Origin: Leptotrichia hofstadii
GTDB taxonomy: Bacteria > Fusobacteriota > Fusobacteriia > Fusobacteriales > Leptotrichiaceae
NCBI RefSeq assembly: GCF_007990525.1
Contig: NZ_AP019823.1
Location: 1,426,001 to 1,490,000, forward strand
Reading direction: 5' to 3'
Length of the DNA: 64,000 nt
The notes beneath the pieces were generated by a model, which did not search any database, had not been told where the DNA came from, and saw nothing but the letters and a program-made list of their open reading frames with translations. Shown one piece after another: positions 17,122 to 53,895 of this stretch (positions are counted from its first letter, which is position 1; each line of letters starts with the position of its first letter). The translations under genes and the position numbers were made by a program.

Positions 17122-17853
17122 TTACTTTTTCACATAAACAAATTTTCTCTCATCCGACATATCCTCATCAAAAACATACCCATCCAAAGTAATATTTCTC
17201 AATTTTTTCACATCACTAATCTTATTTTTCACAATATAATTTAGAGTAAAACCTCTCATTTTCTTCGAGTTTGTACTCACTTGCTTTAATTTCCCATTTG
17301 AATTTTCCCAAAACTCAAAATCAATCAATTTATCAGGGTTTATAAGTTTAGAATATTCTTTTGAGGCAAGATTTAAAATAATGTCTTCGTGTTCAAAATA
17401 TTCATTCACGCTAGTTTTCCAAACCTCATAAAGCGATTTACTTTCAAAAATCGAGTTTGTCATATCAAGACGATACTCCTTCACATTTGTATAAGGGGTC
17501 AAAATCCCATACAAAGCAGACAAGATAACCAAATGCGATTCCAAATATTCAAAATCACTTTTATCAAGTGTTTCAATCTTTATAGCCTTATACGCAACAC
17601 CAGTATAACTTACCAAAGCATTTCCGCTTTTCTCTTTTTCATAATTTTTATAAAATTCCAATAACTTTTGTGCCTTTTCATTTTTCAATTTAAACTTTTT
17701 CTCAATTTTCTCTACAGAAAAGGTTTTTATTCTTTCAATAATTTCATTTATTATTTCTAGATAAAAAGGCTCTTTTTCAGTCAAAGAGCCACTATCTTTT
17801 ATTGGAAAATTGTTAATTTTTTTAGTTTTGCTTGGCGATATTATAATTTTCAT
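17122..17853 (-). CDS. yaaA: Peroxide stress protein YaaA (UPF0246/DUF328)
   Basis: The 243-residue protein opens with MKIIISPSKTKK and has SALYGILTPYTNVKEYRLDM, both hallmarks of YaaA. In E. coli YaaA limits free iron during peroxide stress and protects DNA; it has also been found to bind DNA. The gene begins three bases after the nrdF stop, so it is co-expressed with the ribonucleotide reductase small subunit. That fits a class Ib enzyme, whose manganese/iron cofactor is sensitive to metal state and peroxide. Confidence 0.9.
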   Translation of the reverse strand: MKIIISPSKTKKINNFPIKDSGSLTEKEPFYLEIINEIIERIKTFSVEKIEKKFKLKNEKAQKLLEFYKNYEKEKSGNALVSYTGVAYKAIKIETLDKSDFEYLESHLVILSALYGILTPYTNVKEYRLDMTNSIFESKSLYEVWKTSVNEYFEHEDIILNLASKEYSKLINPDKLIDFEFWENSNGKLKQVSTNSKKMRGFTLNYIVKNKISDVKKLRNITLDGYVFDEDMSDERKFVYVKK

Positions 17854-17856
17854 AAA

Positions 17857-18861
17857 CTAAATCTCCAAATCTAATTCATCATTATTAAATTTAAAATCAT
17901 CATCATGCAAATGCACCACTTCCAGTGCTTTTTCATAATTCGTAGATTTTTTCGAGAAGAAATCGTGCTGTGTTGTTTCCACATTCAACCCATTTAACAC
18001 AATTGGATTTACATTCTTCACTTCAAATTCTTCTTCAAATCCTAGATTCATCAAGGCTTTGTTCGCATTATAACGGATGTATTCCTTCACATCGCCTGTA
18101 AGCCCCAAATCACCGTAAATTTCATCAGTATATCTTGTTTCATTTTCATATAAATCGTACATCAATTTTTTCAGTTCAGCTCTCATATCAGCTTTTTCCT
18201 CTTCGCTGAAAGAATTGTATAATTCCTGGAACAATAGTCCAACAAAAACTCCGTGAATCGATTCATCAGCTATGATTTTCTTGATTATGTCGCAACTTGC
18301 AACCATTTCTCCCTGTCCTGCAAGCCAAAGCGGTAAAAAGAATCCGCTGTAAAATAAATATGTTTCCAAATAAACCGAAGCTGCGAGAGCCATTGCAATA
18401 TCTCTTTTTGAAGCCTCAGGATTATTCATTTTCTGATAATATATGTCAATTTTATTGGCTTTATACTGCAAATGTGGATTTTCCTGAACCCATCTGAATG
18501 TTTCATTAATCTCCCTTGTAGACGCAACCGTTGTAAATATTGTTGAATAAGACTTTGCGTGAATCGTTTCCATCATACACATATATGAAAGCACCGAACG
18601 ATTTTGCAATGACTCAATATGATCAATAATCTTCGGCATCCCCGTATGGCTCTGCAACGTATCCAACAGCGTTAATCCTCCCAGTACATGCAAATACGCC
18701 AATTTCATCGCAGGCTCAAGTGAATTCCAACTATCAATATCCTTCGACGGAATATACTCCGTATCAATCCAAAACTGCTTCAAATTCTGCTCCCAAAACA
18801 TCTCCACATAATCATTTTCCGGTGTGTTCCAGTTTACTGCTTCGTATATTTTTTTCTCCAT
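17857..18861 (-). CDS. nrdF: Class Ib ribonucleotide reductase small subunit NrdF
   Basis: NrdF carries the dimetal-tyrosyl radical cofactor for NrdE. Metal ligands and radical residue are all visible in the 334 residues: D67, E98, H101, Y105 (radical), E166, E200 and H203. The C-terminal tail ends in an acidic segment suited to dock on NrdE. Presence of NrdI and NrdH in the locus points to class Ib with a manganese cofactor. The gene is separated from nrdE by about 3.8 kb of unrelated genes and starts 78 bases after the toxin gene, behind a palindrome. Confidence 0.95.
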   Translation of the reverse strand: MEKKIYEAVNWNTPENDYVEMFWEQNLKQFWIDTEYIPSKDIDSWNSLEPAMKLAYLHVLGGLTLLDTLQSHTGMPKIIDHIESLQNRSVLSYMCMMETIHAKSYSTIFTTVASTREINETFRWVQENPHLQYKANKIDIYYQKMNNPEASKRDIAMALAASVYLETYLFYSGFFLPLWLAGQGEMVASCDIIKKIIADESIHGVFVGLLFQELYNSFSEEEKADMRAELKKLMYDLYENETRYTDEIYGDLGLTGDVKEYIRYNANKALMNLGFEEEFEVKNVNPIVLNGLNVETTQHDFFSKKSTNYEKALEVVHLHDDDFKFNNDELDLEI

Positions 18862-18939: not shown

Positions 18940-19236
18940 TTAGAATAGTTCACTATGACTACCTGATGCTAATAAAATCAATATTAATTTATCTTCAACT
19001 ATCTCGTAGATTAATAACCAATCTGAAGTTATATTACATTCTCTTGCCCCGTCATAATTATTGACTAATTTATGATCCTTGTTTTTAGGAGGAAGTTTTT
19101 CTCCTTTTGCTAATATTGAGATTATACTTTCTAATAATTTTAAATCTTTTTTCTGTTTTTTTAGATTTTTTAAATGTTTTTTAAATTTCCCAGTAAGAAT
19201 AATAGAATATTTATACTCTTCTTTTTTACCCTTCAT
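18940..19236 (-). CDS. YafQ/RelE-family mRNA interferase toxin
   Basis: I start at the ATG at 19236, behind GGGAG and overlapping the antitoxin gene by 11 bases; the longer frame is not needed. The 98-residue product aligns along its whole length with YafQ, ending DWLLIYEI...GSHSELF. YafQ cuts ribosome-bound mRNA. Of its proposed active residues, H55, D72, W73, H94 and F98 are kept, but the histidine in the RECHI motif is asparagine here (N68). Activity may be altered. The partner is the DinJ/RelB-like antitoxin directly upstream. Confidence 0.88.
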   Translation of the reverse strand: MKGKKEEYKYSIILTGKFKKHLKNLKKQKKDLKLLESIISILAKGEKLPPKNKDHKLVNNYDGARECNITSDWLLIYEIVEDKLILILLASGSHSELF

Positions 19237-19516
19237 AATCTTCTCCCAAGACATCTTTAAACATATCTTCTGGACTACTGTACGATTTATAATTTGAAGG
19301 ATTTTTCTTAATTTGTTTAGCTTCTTCAAATGCTTGAGCCAATTCTGAATTTTCAGGTAAAGAATTTATATAAAATGGTATGCCTTTTTCTCTTATAGCT
19401 TGTTTCAAAAATATATTAATTGCTGTACTAAGACTTAATCCTAAATCTTTAAATAATTCCTGTGCTTCTTTTTTAGTTTTCTCATCTATCTTTATACTTG
19501 TATTAACTGTTGCCAT
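19226..19516 (-). CDS. RelB/DinJ-family antitoxin
   Basis: The 96-residue protein has an N-terminal ribbon-helix-helix (NTSIKIDEKTKKEAQELF, then LGLSLSTAINIFLKQAI) that should bind DNA as a dimer. A C-terminal acidic region is likely to wrap the toxin. It precedes and overlaps the YafQ-like toxin gene in the standard antitoxin-first order. A TTGACA/TATAAT promoter and a small palindrome lie just upstream, so autoregulation is expected. Confidence 0.9.
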   Translation of the reverse strand: MATVNTSIKIDEKTKKEAQELFKDLGLSLSTAINIFLKQAIREKGIPFYINSLPENSELAQAFEEAKQIKKNPSNYKSYSSPEDMFKDVLGEDYEG

Positions 19517-19591: not shown

Positions 19592-20536
19592 CTATTTATG
19601 CCAATCTTTTGGAAAATCCATTTTATATAAAATATCATTTATATCTATAATATCTTTTAGTTTAAATTCAAGTAAACTTAATAATTCTCGTAACTTTTTT
19701 GTTAGACTTTCATATTCTTCTTTTGATAAAAATAATTTAAGTCCCTCGTATATCGTAAATAATTTTTGTTTCTTATTATTTGTTATCCCCATAATATTAT
19801 TTATATTTACAATATTTTTTGATGAAAAATCGTACATTCTTTCATTATGTGCTGCTATGTTTCTAAATAATGAACTTGCACGTAAAAAAGTTTTTATAAA
19901 ATTATTATTTAATTTAGGTAAATTTGTGTACTCATTTTTATACAAATTTCTAAAATGACTTATTATTTTATTTTGTACTCTATTTTCCAAAATCAAATAA
20001 AATCTGCTCATTTCTCCAAATGTAAAAAAATTAATTACTATCCAAAATGGTATATTATCTTTTGTTGTACTATAATGCTTTATTATACTATTGCTTTTGT
20101 TATTTCTTAAAAAATTTAGTTTTTTTACTAAATGTGAAATAAGATGTGTATTTTCATTTCTAATTCCAACATAATAATTATCAAGTTCCAAATAACTTTC
20201 TTTATTTGTATAGCATTCCGAATAATAATATGCAATTGCCGTTTTAAAAACTCTTTCCAATTGTGTCAAAACATCAAAAAACAACATTCTCAAACTTTTA
20301 TCAAAATCATACAATGCTTTCAAATGATTAAAATGAACTCCCGATTTATAAATATCATTTCCGTTTAAATCTTTCCCTTTTAAAAAAGGTTCTTTATAAA
20401 AATTTATAATAGAATAATAATTATACCTCATTAAATAATAAATTGTTTCATCATCAGTTTTTACCCGTAATTTACCTCCGTTTTCTCCATTTAAAATCTC
20501 AACTTGTTCCTTAAAAGTTTTAAATGGCTTATCCAT
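19592..20536 (-). CDS. Abi_2 (AbiD/AbiF-type) HEPN-domain abortive infection protein
   Basis: Abi_2 proteins stop phage growth by killing or arresting the infected cell; the fold is HEPN, often an RNase. The C-terminal half carries the diagnostic RNIAAHNERMYD, an R-x4-H motif (R225, H230 with my start). The N-terminal KTFKEQVEIL and YSIINFYK blocks match the family. I start at 20536 behind GGGGGAAAGGGA, giving 314 residues. A structured RNA with its own promoter and terminator ends 30 bases upstream, an arrangement known for AbiF. Codon use is strongly AT-rich, compatible with recent gain. Confidence 0.85.
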   Translation of the reverse strand: MDKPFKTFKEQVEILNGENGGKLRVKTDDETIYYLMRYNYYSIINFYKEPFLKGKDLNGNDIYKSGVHFNHLKALYDFDKSLRMLFFDVLTQLERVFKTAIAYYYSECYTNKESYLELDNYYVGIRNENTHLISHLVKKLNFLRNNKSNSIIKHYSTTKDNIPFWIVINFFTFGEMSRFYLILENRVQNKIISHFRNLYKNEYTNLPKLNNNFIKTFLRASSLFRNIAAHNERMYDFSSKNIVNINNIMGITNNKKQKLFTIYEGLKLFLSKEEYESLTKKLRELLSLLEFKLKDIIDINDILYKMDFPKDWHK

Positions 20537-20564: not shown

Positions 20565-20652
20565 CAAAAAAGCCCTATCAAAATTGAAAGAGCTTTTTCT
20601 ACAGTCTACAACAACGCACAGTTAAGTGGGTTATTCTTGTAGTACGATCACT
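20565..20652 (-). ncRNA. Structured small RNA in front of the Abi gene (abiF-RNA-like)
   Basis: A consensus promoter (20659-20687) fixes the 5' end near 20652. The RNA then holds CTACAA paired with TTGTAG around a loop containing a small CAC/GTG hairpin. It ends in AAGCTCT paired with AGGGCTT (20570-20595) followed by six T residues, an intrinsic terminator. The unit is about 88 nt and lies just before an Abi_2 gene. The literature describes conserved abiF motif RNAs in this position; whether this one belongs to that family needs a covariance search. Confidence 0.65.
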
Positions 20653-20658
20653 AAAATT

Positions 20659-20687
20659 ATTATACTCTATATTTTGATATTTGTCAA
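20659..20687 (-). promoter_or_regulatory. Consensus promoter of the Abi-linked RNA
   Basis: Minus strand TTGACA (20682-20687), a 17-base spacer and TATAAT (20659-20664): a perfect match to the sigma-70 consensus. Confidence 0.85.
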
Positions 20688-20868: not shown

Positions 20869-22695
20869 TTAATAATAAGATTTTTTACATTTATCACTAT
20901 CAATAAAAGTAACTATTCCACCTTTTGAATTAAATTCAACATTTAATTTACAATTTTTAGTTAAATTATATCTTCCTTCTTTAAGAGTTACTTTTCTTAA
21001 AGTATTTGGTTCTAATTTATAGAACTCCTCCTTATCCGAGTATAAATCTATACTTATTTCTCTGTCTGATAGATTAGTTAAAATATAATCATACTCTTTA
21101 GGGAAAGATTTAAATTGACTTTGCTGATTAACAACACCACAACTTTTTAAATCAATTATTCCAATTTCTGAATCAGAATTAATAGTAAATTGACATTTAG
21201 TACCATCATTTTTTTCTATGCTATGTTCACCTGCTTTTAATGTTATTTTTTTTGAAGAATATGATTCTAATATGTAATTGTAATCTGCTGTTGTATCTAA
21301 TTTTATTTTCATTTCTTTATCAGTTGAATTATTTAAAGTATATTTTTTTAAACCTTTGTCTAATACATCATTCTGTCTTATTCCATCTTTATTAATCCAT
21401 ATTACAACTAATGATATTATTGAAGCAAATAATATAATTAAAAAAAAACATATTTTAGGATTCTTCTTTTTATTTTCTACTAAATATTTTAATTTATATT
21501 TTGTAATAAACTCTTCTTCATTTATAAAAATCCATTTATTTTCTTCTTTTTTTAGAATAGAAAAAAAATCAAATGAATATACATCTCCAAGTTTAATATT
21601 GATATTATTTTCAAAAATTTTTTTTAATTTTAATTTTGCAGGAAAAACTAAAAAAGATTCATCATTATCATTTTTATCTTCATGTAAATTAAAGTAATCA
21701 AATTCTAAATTAAAAACTATACCACTAGTGTTTTCATTTAATTCATTTTGATTTATGCTTAATAAATTTGATATTTTTTGTTTCTCTTCATTAAATAAAT
21801 ATTGTGAAATACTATCATATGTATAATTTGTAGCGGAAATTTTCATTAAATTATCTATCATCAATTCAGAAATTTTTTTTTCAACCATTAAATAATTTTC
21901 AATTTCAATTAATTCTTCAAATTGTACACGAATAAAATCTTTTAAAAAATGTTCTTTTAACCAAATTAATATTTTCAAAATAAAATATCCTAAAAAATAA
22001 ATTAATATTATAAAAGGTATTAAATCAATCCATTCAGATTTTTCATTTGTTTTAATATATTGACTGACTAAAATAGATAATACCGATGTAATCAAAGATA
22101 TATTAATATTAATCTTTTTATCAATTGATTTTCTCTTATCTTCTAATTCTTTTAATAAATTATCTATATTTTTCGATTCTATTATAAAATTTTTATCAAT
22201 ATGCTCTTTATATAAATTGTTAATTCTGTTATTAATTTGAACTCTATCATCAAAAAAATCTACAATATCATTTTTTCCAAGTTTTAATTTTGACTTTAAA
22301 TATTTAGAGTAATACCAGTATACCCAAAGTAATGATAAATTGGTTGTAACTAATACAATACTAATCCATGTTTTAAAAAAATCTATATTATTAAATAAAT
22401 AGTTTTTTATCTTTGGTGTAAGAAATAACTCTAATTTAGAAAAATCTGTATTATTAAATAAATAATTCATTAATTTTAATATTTTTTTTAGCATAGGAAA
22501 TAACTCCCATTCAAAATAATCTATATTATTGAATAAGAAATATATTATTCCTGTTAAAATAATTGGAACTATTAAAATAATTATAATAAATATTCTAGGA
22601 AATTTTTGTTTAAAGAAATAATTAGAATTGTGTTTCAATTTTTCTTCTATTAAAGTCTCAATATGAAAGATTTTTGATTTATTTACACCGAACAT
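20869..22695 (-). CDS. Five-helix membrane protein with duplicated C-terminal module, function unknown
   Basis: I do not recognise a named family. The ATG at 22695 (GGAG eight bases before) overlaps the nrdE end by 13 bases. About five membrane helices are seen: near residues 33-55, 110-130, two around 200-260, and one near 415-435. Between the first two, the motif YLFNNxDF occurs three times. The last 160 residues, beyond the final helix, contain two related modules of about 70 residues (roughly 450-519 and 537-608), each with a YxLxN-S-D-x-E start, a TLKxG centre and a cysteine near the end. Very AT-rich. It may be a membrane effector or sensor paired with the SIR2 protein. Confidence 0.7.
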   Translation of the reverse strand: MFGVNKSKIFHIETLIEEKLKHNSNYFFKQKFPRIFIIIILIVPIILTGIIYFLFNNIDYFEWELFPMLKKILKLMNYLFNNTDFSKLELFLTPKIKNYLFNNIDFFKTWISIVLVTTNLSLLWVYWYYSKYLKSKLKLGKNDIVDFFDDRVQINNRINNLYKEHIDKNFIIESKNIDNLLKELEDKRKSIDKKININISLITSVLSILVSQYIKTNEKSEWIDLIPFIILIYFLGYFILKILIWLKEHFLKDFIRVQFEELIEIENYLMVEKKISELMIDNLMKISATNYTYDSISQYLFNEEKQKISNLLSINQNELNENTSGIVFNLEFDYFNLHEDKNDNDESFLVFPAKLKLKKIFENNINIKLGDVYSFDFFSILKKEENKWIFINEEEFITKYKLKYLVENKKKNPKICFFLIILFASIISLVVIWINKDGIRQNDVLDKGLKKYTLNNSTDKEMKIKLDTTADYNYILESYSSKKITLKAGEHSIEKNDGTKCQFTINSDSEIGIIDLKSCGVVNQQSQFKSFPKEYDYILTNLSDREISIDLYSDKEEFYKLEPNTLRKVTLKEGRYNLTKNCKLNVEFNSKGGIVTFIDSDKCKKSYY

Positions 22696-24782
22696 GAAAT
22701 ACACTCCTCAATCGTAGCCTTTCTTGTTCTTGTATAATAAAGCGACTTCAATCCCAGCCTATGTGCATAAATATAAAGTCTAGCCAAATCTCTAGTGCTG
22801 TCCGTACTCTTTGTATACAAAATAGTCGAAATACCTTGATCTACGTGTCTTTGAATTACAGAAATCAGTTTCAAGATATTTTTTTGATCCATATCGTATG
22901 CTGACTTATAGAAGAAGTAGTTGTCGTTTGTCAGGTACGGCATTGGGTAGAAAGTTGTGCTGTCTCCGTATTCTCTCACTTCGATTGTGTCAACTACTGG
23001 CATTACTGAGGCTGTGGAGTTCATTATGTAGGATGTTGACTGGTTTGGTGCGATTGCCATTCGGTAGGCGTTGTAGACTCCGTGTTTCATTACTTTCTCT
23101 TTTAGGTTTGCCCAGTCTTCTTTTGTTGGGATGTAGATTCCTTCAAATAGCTGTTTTATTTTTTCTGTTTGAGGCATGTATTCTTTTGTAATATATTTGT
23201 CAAAATAGTTTCCGTTGGCGTATTCAGATTTTTCAAAATCCTTGAAAGTTTCGCCTTTTTCCTTTGCAATTTCCATCGAACGTTCCAATGAATAGAAATT
23301 TACCATCATAAAGAATACATTACAGAAGTCAAGCGCTTCCTTGCTTTCATACATAATAAAGTTTTTAGCCAGGTATCCATGCAGGTTCATTGCTCCCAGC
23401 CCTACTGAGTGCAGTTCGTCGTTTGCTTTTTTTATTGACGGAACAATATCAATGTTTGTTAAGTCTGATACCATTGTAAGTGAATCAATCGCCGCTTTTG
23501 TGGCTTCTTTTACTCTCTTATTTTCCATTACAGTTGCAATATTTAATGAACCTAAATTACATGAAATTCCACGTCTTATCGTGTCTTCCTCATAATATGC
23601 ATTAATATCTGAAACTTCTGATAATTGCATAATTTCAGTACACAAATTTGAGAACTTAACTGTTCCGATTTCTTTTAATGCGTGTTCCTTATTTGCATTA
23701 TCTTTAAAGAATAAATAAGGGTACCCGCTTTCCTTTTGCGTTTGAGAAATTTTTACAAGAAGTTCCCTTGCATTTATTTTTTTCTTTTTAACATTTGGAT
23801 TATCAACCAGTTTTTCATACATTTCATTCATATCCATCTCATCCAGATATTGTCCATATTCTAGGAATACTGTGTGTGGATTGAATGTGTAGCAAACTTC
23901 ATCTTCCATTGCCAACTGCATAAACTTGTCTGGAACGATAACTCCGATTGACAATGATTTTATCCTAATTTTTTCATCTACATTTATTTTTTTACTATCC
24001 AAAAATTCATTAATATCAGAATGGAAGACATTCAAATAAACAGCTCCAGCTCCAGCTCTTTGCCCCAGCTGATTTGCATACGAAAAAATATCCTCCAAAA
24101 TCTTCATAATTGGTAAAACCCCAGAAGCTCTGCCTTCAACTCCTTTTATTGACTCTCCTCTTGCCCTTACTTTAGAAAGGTTAATCGAAACTCCTCCACC
24201 AATCGAAGAAAGTTTCATTGAAGAATCAAAAACATATCCAATCCCGCTCAAATTATCTCCCATTTCATCAAGAAAACAAGAAACAAGCTCTCCAGAACGT
24301 TTTTTACCAGAATTTAAAAAAGTTGGCGTAGCAGGCTGATATTCTTGATTTATCAACATCAAAGCATACTCTTTTGCCTTTTCAACATTTCCCTGTGCCA
24401 AATAAAGCGAAACTGTCGCAATCCTATCTTCATATCTTTCCAAAAATTTCTCTCCAGTATCATCCATCAAAGCATAACTTTGATAAAACTTAGATGCACT
24501 CATAAACGAAGCAAATCTAAACTTCTTATCGTAAACCAGCTTAAATACTTCCTTTATCTCATCATGGCTATACATCTCATAAAAATCAATATAATAATCA
24601 TTTTTTATCAAATATCTCATCTTTTCCTCAAGATTGTGAAAAAACACCGTATTTTTGTTCACATAATCTACAAAATACGAATAAACAGCCTCCTTATCTT
24701 TCTCCAGCTGAAAATCCTCCCCTTGTTTTACCATTATCTCGTTATTTAGGTATATCCATTTTTTTGCTCTTTTATCTACCAT
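22683..24782 (-). CDS. nrdE: Class Ib ribonucleotide reductase large subunit NrdE
   Basis: NrdE reduces ribonucleoside diphosphates to deoxyribonucleotides. In 699 residues the catalytic set is complete: the thiyl-radical motif NLCTE (N379, C381, E383), the redox pair C169 and C408, the radical-transfer YTRTRKAT near the end, and the C-terminal C694-x2-C697 pair that NrdH re-reduces. There is no N-terminal ATP-cone, as expected for class Ib. The start has AGGAG about nine bases upstream. The SIR2 gene lies 21 bases before it and the membrane-protein gene overlaps its end, so these genes should share one mRNA. Confidence 0.96.
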   Translation of the reverse strand: MVDKRAKKWIYLNNEIMVKQGEDFQLEKDKEAVYSYFVDYVNKNTVFFHNLEEKMRYLIKNDYYIDFYEMYSHDEIKEVFKLVYDKKFRFASFMSASKFYQSYALMDDTGEKFLERYEDRIATVSLYLAQGNVEKAKEYALMLINQEYQPATPTFLNSGKKRSGELVSCFLDEMGDNLSGIGYVFDSSMKLSSIGGGVSINLSKVRARGESIKGVEGRASGVLPIMKILEDIFSYANQLGQRAGAGAVYLNVFHSDINEFLDSKKINVDEKIRIKSLSIGVIVPDKFMQLAMEDEVCYTFNPHTVFLEYGQYLDEMDMNEMYEKLVDNPNVKKKKINARELLVKISQTQKESGYPYLFFKDNANKEHALKEIGTVKFSNLCTEIMQLSEVSDINAYYEEDTIRRGISCNLGSLNIATVMENKRVKEATKAAIDSLTMVSDLTNIDIVPSIKKANDELHSVGLGAMNLHGYLAKNFIMYESKEALDFCNVFFMMVNFYSLERSMEIAKEKGETFKDFEKSEYANGNYFDKYITKEYMPQTEKIKQLFEGIYIPTKEDWANLKEKVMKHGVYNAYRMAIAPNQSTSYIMNSTASVMPVVDTIEVREYGDSTTFYPMPYLTNDNYFFYKSAYDMDQKNILKLISVIQRHVDQGISTILYTKSTDSTRDLARLYIYAHRLGLKSLYYTRTRKATIEECISCSV

Positions 24783-24803: not shown

Positions 24804-26375
24804 TTAATTTTTATCATTTAAAAATTCTATTATTTCATCAATGTGTTTAGTTGCAGCAACTAATCCTAATTTATAAATAATTGTTTCGTAGTTAATATTG
24901 TCAGGATTTTCATTTTTTGTGTGATATTCAACTTCTCCTTCTTGTGATTTTGTACTCATATATTTTAATCCAAAACAACTATGAAATTTTTTATATCTCT
25001 CTAAATCATGTTCTAATTTATCTGTTTGAATTGTTCCATTTTCATCTTTCCAATTTTCAAACCAATCTATTACGATAACTTTTTTCTTTTCTTTATCTCT
25101 AAAATCTTCAAAAGTAGCATTTAAATGTATATCATTAAAACCACACCCTATAAATATTACACCTTCTGCTTCTGATACTATTGAAACTAATTTACTAAAA
25201 AATGTTTTAAAAGGATCGTACATAATTTGTTGTTGTTTATCATAACCAATAACTATTGATTGCCGTATAACGTATTCCCCAGCATCTCTTTTTTCTTTTA
25301 AATATGATACATTTTCATTTATTGGCTTAGACAAATCATTTGGAATAGATTTATCCCAAATAATTTTATCATTAATTATTCTATTATGAATAGAACCGTG
25401 TACGTGATATAAAAATTCCCACTTTTTTCTAAATAAAATTTCCTTTTTTAAAAATTCACCATCTTCTTTATTAAATCCAACGAAAAAATCTGAAAATATC
25501 TCATTTAATAGAGGATCATAATTTGTAGTTATTATACCTATTTCAAAATTTTCACATAAACTTTTATAAAATTTTTCTATATTTTGTCTGTTTGTTTTTC
25601 TTTGTTTTTCTTCTTGTTCGACATTTAATACATCAGTTGCAATAATTGAAGATAACCTTCTAGTTACTATCTCAGCAATTTTTTTATATAGTTCTTGAAA
25701 ATCGTCACTACTATATCCCCTTAATTTATCACTATTTTTAATACTAAAAATTTCATCCATTAAGGGTGTATCATTATTATTTCGTAAATATGAACTTAAT
25801 TTTAAACATACAAATGCTATTTCCTCAAAATTAGTAAAATTCTTTATTTCTTCTATATATAAACCTAATTTATGTTCTTGTTTTTGAAATAAATAATTTC
25901 TTAAAAAAGAGATACTTTGTTCAAATGAAAAATCTTCATTGGTTAAAACTCTCTGGATTTTTTCTAATTCTTTTACTAAATCATCATTTCTCAATATCAA
26001 ATTTTTTAATTCCTTTAATTTGTCAATTAAATATATATTGTTTCTATATTTTAGTTTTTCAATTCTATTGTAAAATTTTTTATTGTCTTTTATTTCTTCA
26101 AGTAAAATGGGATTTTTTAATTTTTCTAATTCTTTTTCTAAATTTTTCTTGCTTTTTTCTTTAAGTTCTTTTATTACTTTATCTAATCTTTTTATTTTTT
26201 TATCACTTTTATTATTTAAAATATTCTTAATTACTAAATATAAGTCAAACAGATTTTTGTTAGAATTTTTTAATTGAAATTCTATCACTTCATTTAAACC
26301 GTTCATTAAAGGATAACCAACTTCAACTGAACCTCCTGCCCCCACAACTATCAAAATTTTTTTTTTAGATTTCAC
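24804..26375 (-). CDS. SIR2-domain protein, probable NAD-consuming defence effector
   Basis: A 523-residue SIR2-like protein. The NAD-binding GAGGS is at 12-16, TTNYD at 283-287, a catalytic-type histidine in HVHGS (H326 the best candidate) and GCGFND at 410-415. A long charged helical insertion (about 55-145) separates the first motif from the rest. Proteins of this kind in defence systems (Thoeris ThsA, DSR, SIR2-Argonaute) deplete NAD on phage attack. The start is GTG, overlapping the nrdI stop by four bases (GTGA), so it is coupled to nrdI. No sirtuin zinc cluster is seen, arguing against protein deacetylation. Function by family analogy only. Confidence 0.85.
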   Translation of the reverse strand: MKSKKKILIVVGAGGSVEVGYPLMNGLNEVIEFQLKNSNKNLFDLYLVIKNILNNKSDKKIKRLDKVIKELKEKSKKNLEKELEKLKNPILLEEIKDNKKFYNRIEKLKYRNNIYLIDKLKELKNLILRNDDLVKELEKIQRVLTNEDFSFEQSISFLRNYLFQKQEHKLGLYIEEIKNFTNFEEIAFVCLKLSSYLRNNNDTPLMDEIFSIKNSDKLRGYSSDDFQELYKKIAEIVTRRLSSIIATDVLNVEQEEKQRKTNRQNIEKFYKSLCENFEIGIITTNYDPLLNEIFSDFFVGFNKEDGEFLKKEILFRKKWEFLYHVHGSIHNRIINDKIIWDKSIPNDLSKPINENVSYLKEKRDAGEYVIRQSIVIGYDKQQQIMYDPFKTFFSKLVSIVSEAEGVIFIGCGFNDIHLNATFEDFRDKEKKKVIVIDWFENWKDENGTIQTDKLEHDLERYKKFHSCFGLKYMSTKSQEGEVEYHTKNENPDNINYETIIYKLGLVAATKHIDEIIEFLNDKN

Positions 26376-26764
26376 TTTGTATCATTCCTCTTTTCCAAAT
26401 AATCTATATAATTTTCCACTTCTGTACTTGTTCCTGACAGCTCAAATTTCATTAATACTGGAATTCCGTATTTTTCCTGAATTTTATCAGCTGCTAGTGC
26501 GAAAAATTGTCCCCAGTTTCTGTTTCCGCTAGAACTTACTGATTTTAATAGTTTACTGTTGTTTTCATTTTGTAGAAATTCATTTGTTGTTGCTGGAATT
26601 TCTCCAATTTTTGTTGTGAATGTCAGAAAATGTCCTTCATTTTCGATTACCATAGTTGGATTTATCTTTATAAAATGCCAGTCTGGACGTTGTACTTGCA
26701 TTTTTTTTATGAATCGTTCAACATTTCCTGTTTTTGAATCGTAATATATATACATCGATTTCAC
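26372..26764 (-). CDS. nrdI: Class Ib ribonucleotide reductase flavodoxin NrdI
   Basis: NrdI is a small flavoprotein that makes the oxidant needed to build the manganese-tyrosyl cofactor of NrdF. The 130 residues open with a flavodoxin-type FMN loop (YYDSKTGNVERF), and the later SSGNRNWGQFF segment is characteristic of NrdI. It starts with ATG behind AAGGTG. It comes 336 bases after nrdH, with a hairpin between, and its stop overlaps the GTG of the SIR2 gene. Confidence 0.94.
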   Translation of the reverse strand: MKSMYIYYDSKTGNVERFIKKMQVQRPDWHFIKINPTMVIENEGHFLTFTTKIGEIPATTNEFLQNENNSKLLKSVSSSGNRNWGQFFALAADKIQEKYGIPVLMKFELSGTSTEVENYIDYLEKRNDTK

Positions 26765-27020: not shown

Positions 27021-27058
27021 ACTCAAAACTAGATATTTTAATAAAAATCGTTTTGAGT
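27021..27058 (-). terminator. Hairpin between nrdH and nrdI, possible attenuator
   Basis: ACTCAAAAC and GTTTTGAGT make a perfect nine-base-pair stem with a 20-base loop, followed on the minus strand by a T-rich tract. It lies about 40 bases past the nrdH stop and could lower expression of the downstream nrdI-SIR2-nrdE genes relative to nrdH. Confidence 0.55.
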
Positions 27059-27099: not shown

Positions 27100-27339
27100 T
27101 TACATCATTGAGATGATTTCATTGATTTCTTCTGGCTTAAATCCAATTGTTCTTTTTATTTCTTCGTTTTCTTCAAACAAAATTACTGTTGGAACACTTC
27201 TTACTCTGTATTTTACAGCAATTTCTGGATTATCAAATGGATTTATTCTTTCGTATTCTATACCTTTTTTATCTAACAAATCCGACACCATTGCACACGG
27301 ATTACAATCATTTTTCTCAAATTTCACTATTTTTTTCAT
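27100..27339 (-). CDS. nrdH: NrdH-redoxin (glutaredoxin-like)
   Basis: A 79-residue thioredoxin-fold protein with the redox pair C12-N-P-C15 and the cis-proline segment RSVPTVILF. NrdH proteins are the dedicated electron donors that re-reduce the C-terminal cysteines of NrdE. It is the first gene of the nrd locus, preceded by paired NrdR-like boxes. The CNPC rather than the more usual CVQC/CMQC centre is a small deviation, so a general thioredoxin-like role is a minor alternative. Confidence 0.87.
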   Translation of the reverse strand: MKKIVKFEKNDCNPCAMVSDLLDKKGIEYERINPFDNPEIAVKYRVRSVPTVILFEENEEIKRTIGFKPEEINEIISMM

Positions 27340-27358: not shown

Positions 27359-27418
27359 ATTATATAAAAAACACAATATATTGTGTTTTGCTTGAATTTT
27401 TTAACATATATGTAGTGT
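27359..27418 (-). promoter_or_regulatory. nrd promoter with paired NrdR boxes
   Basis: ACACAATATATTGTGT (27371-27386) is a perfect palindrome matching the NrdR box. A second, weaker box, ACACTACATATATGTT on the minus strand (27403-27418), lies 16 bases away, giving the typical three-helical-turn centre spacing. A TATAAT -10 (27359-27364) abuts the first box, so bound NrdR would block RNA polymerase. nrdR itself is at 53428-53895. The rest of the 27340-27879 gap is AT-rich, with the terminator at 27803-27840 and no supported gene. Confidence 0.85.
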
Positions 27419-27802
27419 ATCTTATTTTTAAAATTTTTTCAATAAGATTATATTTAATTTTTGATTAAATAGTTTTTTAAGTTGATGAATAAAGGGGTTT
27501 ATTAATTATATATTTTATATATTAAAATCCAGTCATTTATTATATTTTAGAAGGATTCCGAAAAAATGATAGTTTGTATAACAGCTTTATTTTTTTGTTT
27601 TACTGATGATACAAAATTTTTAAAAGTTTATATTTGAATATTTAAATTTTATTAACAAACAATCTAAAAACATCAGCACCAATTTATAGCTTTTTTATTC
27701 TTTTATATTTAAAAATTGCATCAAATATGCAACTTACTCTCCAATAAAAGTAAATGAAGAAATGAGATTCGGAATATAAATACAATCATTAAAATAAAAA
27801 AA

Positions 27803-53427: not shown

Positions 53428-53895
53428 TTATTTTCTCTTATTCTTGTCATTATGTATCTTCTCAATTTCCTTTACAAAGCTGTCCAGACTGTCAAATTTT
53501 TTGTAAACTGATGCAAATCTGACATAGGCAATCTCATCTAGATCTATCAAATATGAAAGTATTTTATCACCCAGTTCGCTGGACTTTATTTCTCCAGAAT
53601 AGGTTGTAAGTATTTCACGCTCAATCTTATCCAAAGTTTCCTCTATTTTCTCCTTATCAATTTGACGCTTTTCAAACGCCCTGATAATTCCGTTATAGAC
53701 TTTTTCACGAGAATAAGGCTGTTTTTCTCCATTTTTTTTTATTACAGTCAACGACAGTTCTGCAACTTTTTCATGCGTTGTAAACCTTTTTCCGCATTTT
53801 TCACATTCACGCCGTCTTTTTATTGAGTTTCTTTCAAAATATGCACGGCTATCAACGACTTTTGTATTTTCATAGCCACAAAATGGACATCTCAT
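53428..53895 (-). CDS. nrdR: Ribonucleotide reductase regulator NrdR
   Basis: NrdR is an ATP/dATP-sensing repressor of nrd genes. The N-terminal zinc ribbon has CPFCG and CEKCG cysteine pairs (about 3-6 and 36-39), followed by an ATP-cone (about 48-138). The 155 residues match the usual length. Paired boxes for it are visible 26 kb away at 27371-27418, before nrdH. It is embedded in the long operon between the PTS IIA-like gene and the FtsB-like gene. Confidence 0.97.
   Translation of the reverse strand: MRCPFCGYENTKVVDSRAYFERNSIKRRRECEKCGKRFTTHEKVAELSLTVIKKNGEKQPYSREKVYNGIIRAFEKRQIDKEKIEETLDKIEREILTTYSGEIKSSELGDKILSYLIDLDEIAYVRFASVYKKFDSLDSFVKEIEKIHNDKNKRK

Follow-up and report, generated by a model that had tools for sequence, protein, structure and literature searches.

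Leptotrichia hofstadii carries a SIR2-like gene inside its class Ib RNR operon, and an earlier note had described a pair of NrdR boxes next to nrdH, the first gene of that operon. Is this pair a genuine NrdR operator, how far does its control reach down the operon, and is SIR2 a dedicated member of the nucleotide-pool regulon? We analysed the window, which is the whole 64,000-nt stretch of DNA containing the operon, and compared it with related genomes and with more distant nrd loci. The features are collected in Table 1.

Table 1. Features of the class Ib RNR operon of L. hofstadii and of nrdR, in window coordinates
Feature	Position	Strand	Remarks
nrdR	53428..53895	-	Zn-ribbon and ATP-cone domains; about 26 kb from the operator
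nrdH promoter (predicted)	27414..27442	-	-35 TTGAAA (27442-27437), 17 bp, -10 TACACT (27419-27414); conserved
NrdR box 2	27403..27418	.	3 mismatches to consensus; overlaps the -10 element
NrdR box 1	27371..27386	.	perfect palindrome; in the predicted 5' UTR of nrdH
nrdH (glutaredoxin-like)	27100..27339	-	profile match
nrdH-nrdI hairpin	27021..27058	-	ACTCAAAAC...GTTTTGAGT, then a U-rich tail; single copy in the genome
nrdI (flavodoxin-like)	26372..26764	-	E 6.9e-29
SIR2-like gene	24804..26375	-	523 aa, SIR2_2; GTG start, 4-nt overlap with the nrdI stop
nrdE (class Ib RNR large subunit)	22683..24782	-	profile match
Membrane protein gene	20869..22695	-	no family match; ATG inside the nrdE end, 13-nt overlap
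AbiD leader promoter (predicted)	20659..20687	-	12/12 consensus TTGACA-17-TATAAT; present in aligned AbiD leaders
AbiD leader intrinsic terminator (sequence prediction)	20566..20593	-	GCTCTTTCAATTTTGATAGGGC-TTTTTT; ends the leader RNA
AbiD/Abi_2 gene	19592..20536	-	E 6.2e-36; AbiD 4.8e-47
RelB/DinJ-type antitoxin	19226..19516	-	E 8.2e-14
YafQ-type toxin	18940..19329	-	E 3.5e-28
nrdF (class Ib RNR small subunit)	17857..18861	-	preceded by neither an NrdR box nor a conserved promoter

The consensus of the NrdR box is ACACWATATNTWGTGT. Box 1 (ACACAATATATTGTGT) matches it with 0 mismatches on both strands, and box 2 (AACATATATGTAGTGT) differs from it at three positions. The two boxes are 32 bp apart from start to start, with a 16-bp spacer. 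The perfect palindrome, the second box at the usual three-turn spacing and the distance to nrdR were thus all as the earlier note had stated. The nrdR gene was detected in 32 of 33 family genomes, and the sole miss (G088) is a genome that is 86% complete.

Such boxes might be chance palindromes of AT-rich DNA, and the counts of lone boxes are what chance would give. At up to 3 mismatches, 12 lone boxes were seen in the 64-kb window against 11.5 expected; at up to 2 mismatches, the whole genome held 75, against 74 in a backward control. The single-box genome scan was dropped as evidence, since its count equals that of the control. The box pair behaved differently. A pattern of two boxes with a 16-bp spacer and at most 3 mismatches in all was searched in 13 Leptotrichia genomes, together with a control. 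It matched only before nrdH (10/13) and before nrdD (12/13), while the control had 0 matches in each genome. In the L. hofstadii genome (2.6 Mb), these are the only two sites; the nrdD-side pair, which the earlier note does not mention, lies outside the window (L038 4361-4408), and its gene matches NRDD with an E value of 1e-181. The gene at the site was identified by peptide motif in 19 loci (12 nrdD, 7 nrdH) and by coordinates at the other three nrdH-side sites. Three genomes were missed at nrdH (G005, G007 and G009, with no pair at all in G005), and each has a perfect box 1 and a 4-mismatch partner at the same -32 position. Box 1 has 0 mismatches in 13/13 Leptotrichia loci and at most 1 in 28/28 family loci, and a partner at -32 with at most 4 mismatches is present in all 13 Leptotrichia loci. 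With this conservation across the family and an empty pair control, chance origin of the boxes is hardly credible.

The nrdH-upstream site has a consensus-like box, a box pair in helical phase with a 16-bp spacer, RNR genes downstream and nrdR in the genome. Judged by sequence, it is an authentic, conserved and ordinary two-box operator, to which NrdR would be expected to bind. Box pairs with a 15-16 bp spacer are a common class among the NrdR operators of Listeria, E. coli, Streptomyces and Streptococcus, and NrdR works via ATP/dATP loading, according to the part of the source available to us (PMC12051234). Leptotrichia shares with the RNR operons covered there the two boxes and the 16-bp spacer, upstream of class Ib and class III RNR genes (PMC12051234). 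The earlier note had the boxes flanking the nrdH promoter. Instead, and unlike the operators described in that part of the source (PMC12051234), box 2 sits on the -10 element, box 1 lies about 20-35 bp past the predicted transcription start, and the operon holds foreign cargo. The promoter motif TTGNNN-17-TA[TC]ACT was found upstream in 24/28 family loci. The other four loci all belong to one genus (Streptobacillus, as named from one member), in which the operon starts with nrdI.

Downstream of the operator, the gene order nrdH, nrdI, SIR2, nrdE and membrane gene had been given correctly. Because SIR2 shares 4 nt with nrdI and stops only 21 nt short of nrdE, it is very likely transcribed together with nrdI and nrdE. 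The nrdH-nrdI gap contains a hairpin (Table 1) that is possibly a weak terminator or an attenuator. Alignment showed the hairpin TACTCAAAAC...GTTTTGAGTA with its U-rich tail after nrdH in 9/13 Leptotrichia genomes; a regular expression found seven of them, and the other two differ by one base in the 3' arm.

This conserved hairpin would suit a different layout, in which it ends most nrdH transcripts, the operator governs little past nrdH, and SIR2, nrdE and the cargo are driven mainly by promoters that went unrecognised, either between nrdH and nrdI or within nrdI or nrdE. Such a layout could also accommodate the gap of 335-351 bp in four genomes, the one 10/12 sigma-70-like match in the gap of G002 and G004, and one 10/12 match inside L. 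hofstadii nrdE (23332-23305). A strong independent promoter in the gap, which the earlier note had named as evidence that would tell against its view, was looked for in L. hofstadii. No sigma-70-like site of at least 10/12 was found there, and the best match was a single one of 9/12. The whole region showed 55 sigma-70-like matches against 57.8 in shuffled sequences, which is no excess. A gap of just 17 bp, as in G005 and G007, would not hold a promoter, and nrdI would lose control by the sole operator if the transcripts ended after nrdH. We consider internal promoters of this kind improbable. The claim that an NrdR response alters SIR2 expression is thus supported in part, by the genuine operator, the presence of nrdR, the tight 4-nt and 13-nt overlaps and the lack of a good promoter in the gap. 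The hairpin, together with the AbiD leader terminator, may leave the expression of downstream genes, above all nrdF, only partly dependent on NrdR.

The SIR2 protein matched the SIR2_2 profile and contains the motifs GAGGS, TTNYD and VHGS. It has this domain and these motifs in common with SIR2-domain defence effectors. It differs from them in the spacing of its first two motifs, which stand roughly 270 residues apart, in having no sequence match in the PDB, and in that no close relative was found among the genome and viral contigs searched. Plasmid sequences gave one weak partial match (24% identity over 30%). Without relatives there was no alignment, and the structure model was unusable (mean pLDDT 35.2). 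SIR2 is present in 1/13 Leptotrichia genomes and in 1/98 Fusobacteriota genomes, the membrane gene in 2/13 and nrdE in 13/13. A two-gene system of SIR2 and the membrane gene, split by nrdE, was not supported, for the membrane gene occurs in G010, which lacks SIR2. Where L. hofstadii has SIR2, five genomes (G002, G003, G004, G008 and G010; loci L048, L049, L050, L054 and L056) have an nrdI-nrdE gap of 527-703 bp. These gaps are AT-rich non-coding stretches common to the five genomes. They were rejected as decayed SIR2, with no SIR2 match at E 1e-3 and no ORF above 85 aa.

The nrdE gene itself shows a separate peculiarity. In G011 (L057:6134-9238), it carries an in-frame intein of about 335 aa near residue 382, matching Intein_splicing and LAGLIDADG_3. 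The same position and length point to an intein in G009 (L055:6045-9149), and the other 11 Leptotrichia genomes have none.

SIR2 is not the only insertion in the operon. The nrdE-nrdF gap measures 1.5-5.7 kb in 13/13 Leptotrichia genomes and 0.5-5.0 kb in five close relatives (2.0-5.0 kb in G077, G080, G083 and G085; 0.5 kb in G084, without an ORF of 80 aa). It is 14-46 bp in ten other relatives, and at most 334 bp in 59/59 Bacteroidota and Bacillota loci. The distant loci were fetched by nrdE similarity; the 67 records include 7 of Fusobacteriota, and no nrdF was matched in the 60th distant locus, from a Blattabacterium, which was not counted. The comparison leaves out G081, G082, G090 and G091, with rearranged and more distant nrdE and nrdF, and G076, which has neither gene. 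Since the junction is closed or nearly closed in the other relatives and distant loci and open in Leptotrichia and its close relatives, the operon is commonly compact and has been opened specifically in this clade.

Sequence identity of NrdE bears on the history of the operon as a whole. Bacteroidota NrdE proteins (L101-L159) are 75-78% identical to that of L. hofstadii, Bacillus reaches 59%, and the better matches in the other main Fusobacteriales family reach 31-35%. That the Bacteroidota proteins are the closer ones suggests that the class Ib operon was transferred horizontally.

At the open junction, the first cargo ORF overlaps nrdE or begins at most 58 bp from its stop in 12/13 Leptotrichia genomes. 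Of the ORFs in the slots that reach 80 aa, 62/64 run in the operon direction, with two exceptions of 82 and 140 codons. This orientation could also reflect that opposing inserts would silence nrdF. The cargo, SIR2 included, forms 33 clusters, of which 23 were encountered a single time. This turnover occurs despite 94-96% identity of nrdE DNA between L. hofstadii and seven relatives.

The earlier note had not listed AbiD and RelB/DinJ-YafQ, which lie between the membrane gene and nrdF. AbiD/Abi_2 also occupies the slots of G010, G077 and G080, with fragments or broken copies elsewhere. Other cargo includes RelB-YafQ toxin-antitoxin pairs and Fic proteins, AbiH in G011 and, in pieces, in G006, a CBASS NUDIX effector with a broken cyclase in G002, and a type II methyltransferase with a restriction enzyme in G005. 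BnzB-like cargo was assigned in G003 and, by cluster, in G008, a PDC-M09B candidate in G007, and PDC-S72 candidates in G004, G080 and G083. The G012 slot holds one HTH_38 protein, which we take to resemble an IS30 transposase. Several cargo genes have no family match. A defence or toxin-antitoxin match, directly or by cluster, was obtained in 16/18 open-slot genomes, a count that takes in Fic, listed by PADLOC as a candidate; G001, with a sole cargo gene, and G084 gave none. At E<1e-5, PADLOC profiles matched 12/33 selected slot proteins and 0/10 hand-picked non-slot proteins of the window, a rough comparison of chosen representatives rather than a test of enrichment. The 33 count the membrane protein in both its forms and leave out SIR2. 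The defence label rests on profile matches, and with the G002 cyclase, the G006 AbiH and the AbiD fragments broken, some of the cargo may no longer function.

Chromosomal defence hotspots lie between conserved core genes, with conserved flanks and changing defence and toxin-antitoxin cargo. The Leptotrichia slot shares these conserved flanking genes and this variable cargo. It differs from such hotspots in lying inside one metabolic operon, between the genes of two subunits of one enzyme, with its cargo in line. The nrdE-nrdF junction is most likely an operon-internal defence hotspot under the NrdR promoter. SIR2 was right to be counted within the operon, but it is a species-specific passenger, one of the 33 cargo clusters. 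What had been read as an effector in the nucleotide-pool regulon is an effect of the site, common to unrelated genes.

The reach of NrdR control towards nrdF depends on AbiD. The predicted AbiD leader is about 85 nt long, comes with a perfect promoter and a terminator (promoter to terminator, 20687-20566), and is conserved in relatives. In G004, a diverged copy stands before a Fic gene in place of AbiD. In a terminator scan, copies of this leader were the only operon-direction terminators across the slots. The AbiF/RCd22 locus of Clostridioides difficile has the same layout, namely promoter, short RNA, terminator and Abi_2 gene, and there it stops most transcription ahead of the gene, according to the available part of the report (PMC12373285). 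The L. hofstadii layout, known here from sequence, differs from that account in sitting in an nrd operon and in a leader that matches no Rfam family (PMC12373285).

Upstream of nrdF, the earlier note had seen no NrdR box, and in L. hofstadii a search of the 400 bp before the gene, allowing up to 4 mismatches, also gave none. None with up to 3 mismatches was found in 13/13 Leptotrichia genomes, and 4-mismatch sites occur in 4/13. An independent promoter before nrdF was rejected, as the stretch conserved there, judged by eye, extends over no more than about 25 bp. Given the missing box and this short conserved stretch, nrdF presumably relied ancestrally on the nrdH promoter. With the AbiD leader bringing its own promoter and terminator, the NrdR-controlled transcript would probably stop for the most part near 20.6 kb, and nrdF would be reached by read-through or from the AbiD promoter. 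AbiD, the toxin-antitoxin pair and nrdF may therefore be only partly under NrdR control; SIR2 and the membrane gene lie upstream of the AbiD terminator. Next to nrdF, the 5' end of yaaA contains an inverted repeat (17763-17814; GGCTCT...AGAGCC then T on the coding strand). It scored 27.9 as a histone stem-loop, below the 34-bit gathering cut-off, and is perhaps an attenuator.

In conclusion, we propose that an NrdR operator and an operon-internal defence hotspot coincide here, with SIR2 and the membrane gene under the NrdR promoter, and we put the probability of this explanation at about 0.78. The ancestral operon would have been a compact nrdH-I-E-F unit with a single promoter, and the two-box operator would repress it when dATP is plentiful. 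The nrdE-nrdF junction would have become the hotspot in Leptotrichia and its nearest genera, joined in L. hofstadii by the nrdI-nrdE junction. Defence, toxin-antitoxin and other genes would enter and leave this hotspot, nearly always in the operon direction. SIR2 and the membrane gene would be translationally coupled to their neighbours and transcribed from the NrdR-controlled promoter. As NrdR binds when loaded with dATP, SIR2 would be expected to rise as dATP falls and to drop at high dATP. The nrdH hairpin and the AbiD terminator could break this transcript.

Whether the control serves defence is a separate matter. It may be incidental, with a permissive site in which co-directional inserts survive, and regulation by dATP would then play no part in defence. 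This account is compatible with the explanation proposed above, and we regard it as fairly probable. The cargo families are mutually unrelated across the 33 clusters, and broken or fragmentary cargo genes are common. Toxin-antitoxin units autoregulate, and these and the AbiD units bring their own regulation into the slot. It accounts less readily for a slot that stays open in every Leptotrichia genome though it lies inside an RNR operon, and that is closed or nearly so in all ten compact relatives and all 59 distant loci. The stronger proposal is that NrdR gates immunity in Leptotrichia. Defence genes in the RNR operon would then go up whenever dNTP pools are depleted, for instance through phage replication or a block of RNR, and go down at high dATP. 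We hold this to be unlikely, and an adaptive value of NrdR control over the cargo is hypothetical. Phage infection may shift dATP up or down. Phage T5, which has its own RNR, sharply raised adenosine nucleotides, according to the available part of the report (PMC12483538). With a dATP rise of that kind, the unit would stay repressed, which speaks against a general induction of SIR2 by phage and favours an incidental or starvation-linked role.

The operator is of a known kind, and the hotspot inside the operon is the new element. The open-access papers searched yielded no account of an RNR operon with defence genes, nor of NrdR in connection with anti-phage defence. If the gating proposal were true, nucleotide supply and phage defence would belong to a single regulon whose effectors can be exchanged, with SIR2 as the present one in L. 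hofstadii. Should transcripts confirm the arrangement, dATP gating of immunity would be directly testable in one strain. For annotation, the Leptotrichia genes between nrdE and nrdF should not be taken for RNR accessory factors. More broadly, the operon of a housekeeping enzyme appears to be kept open as a docking site for fast-exchanged defence genes, which would thereby fall under a nucleotide sensor.
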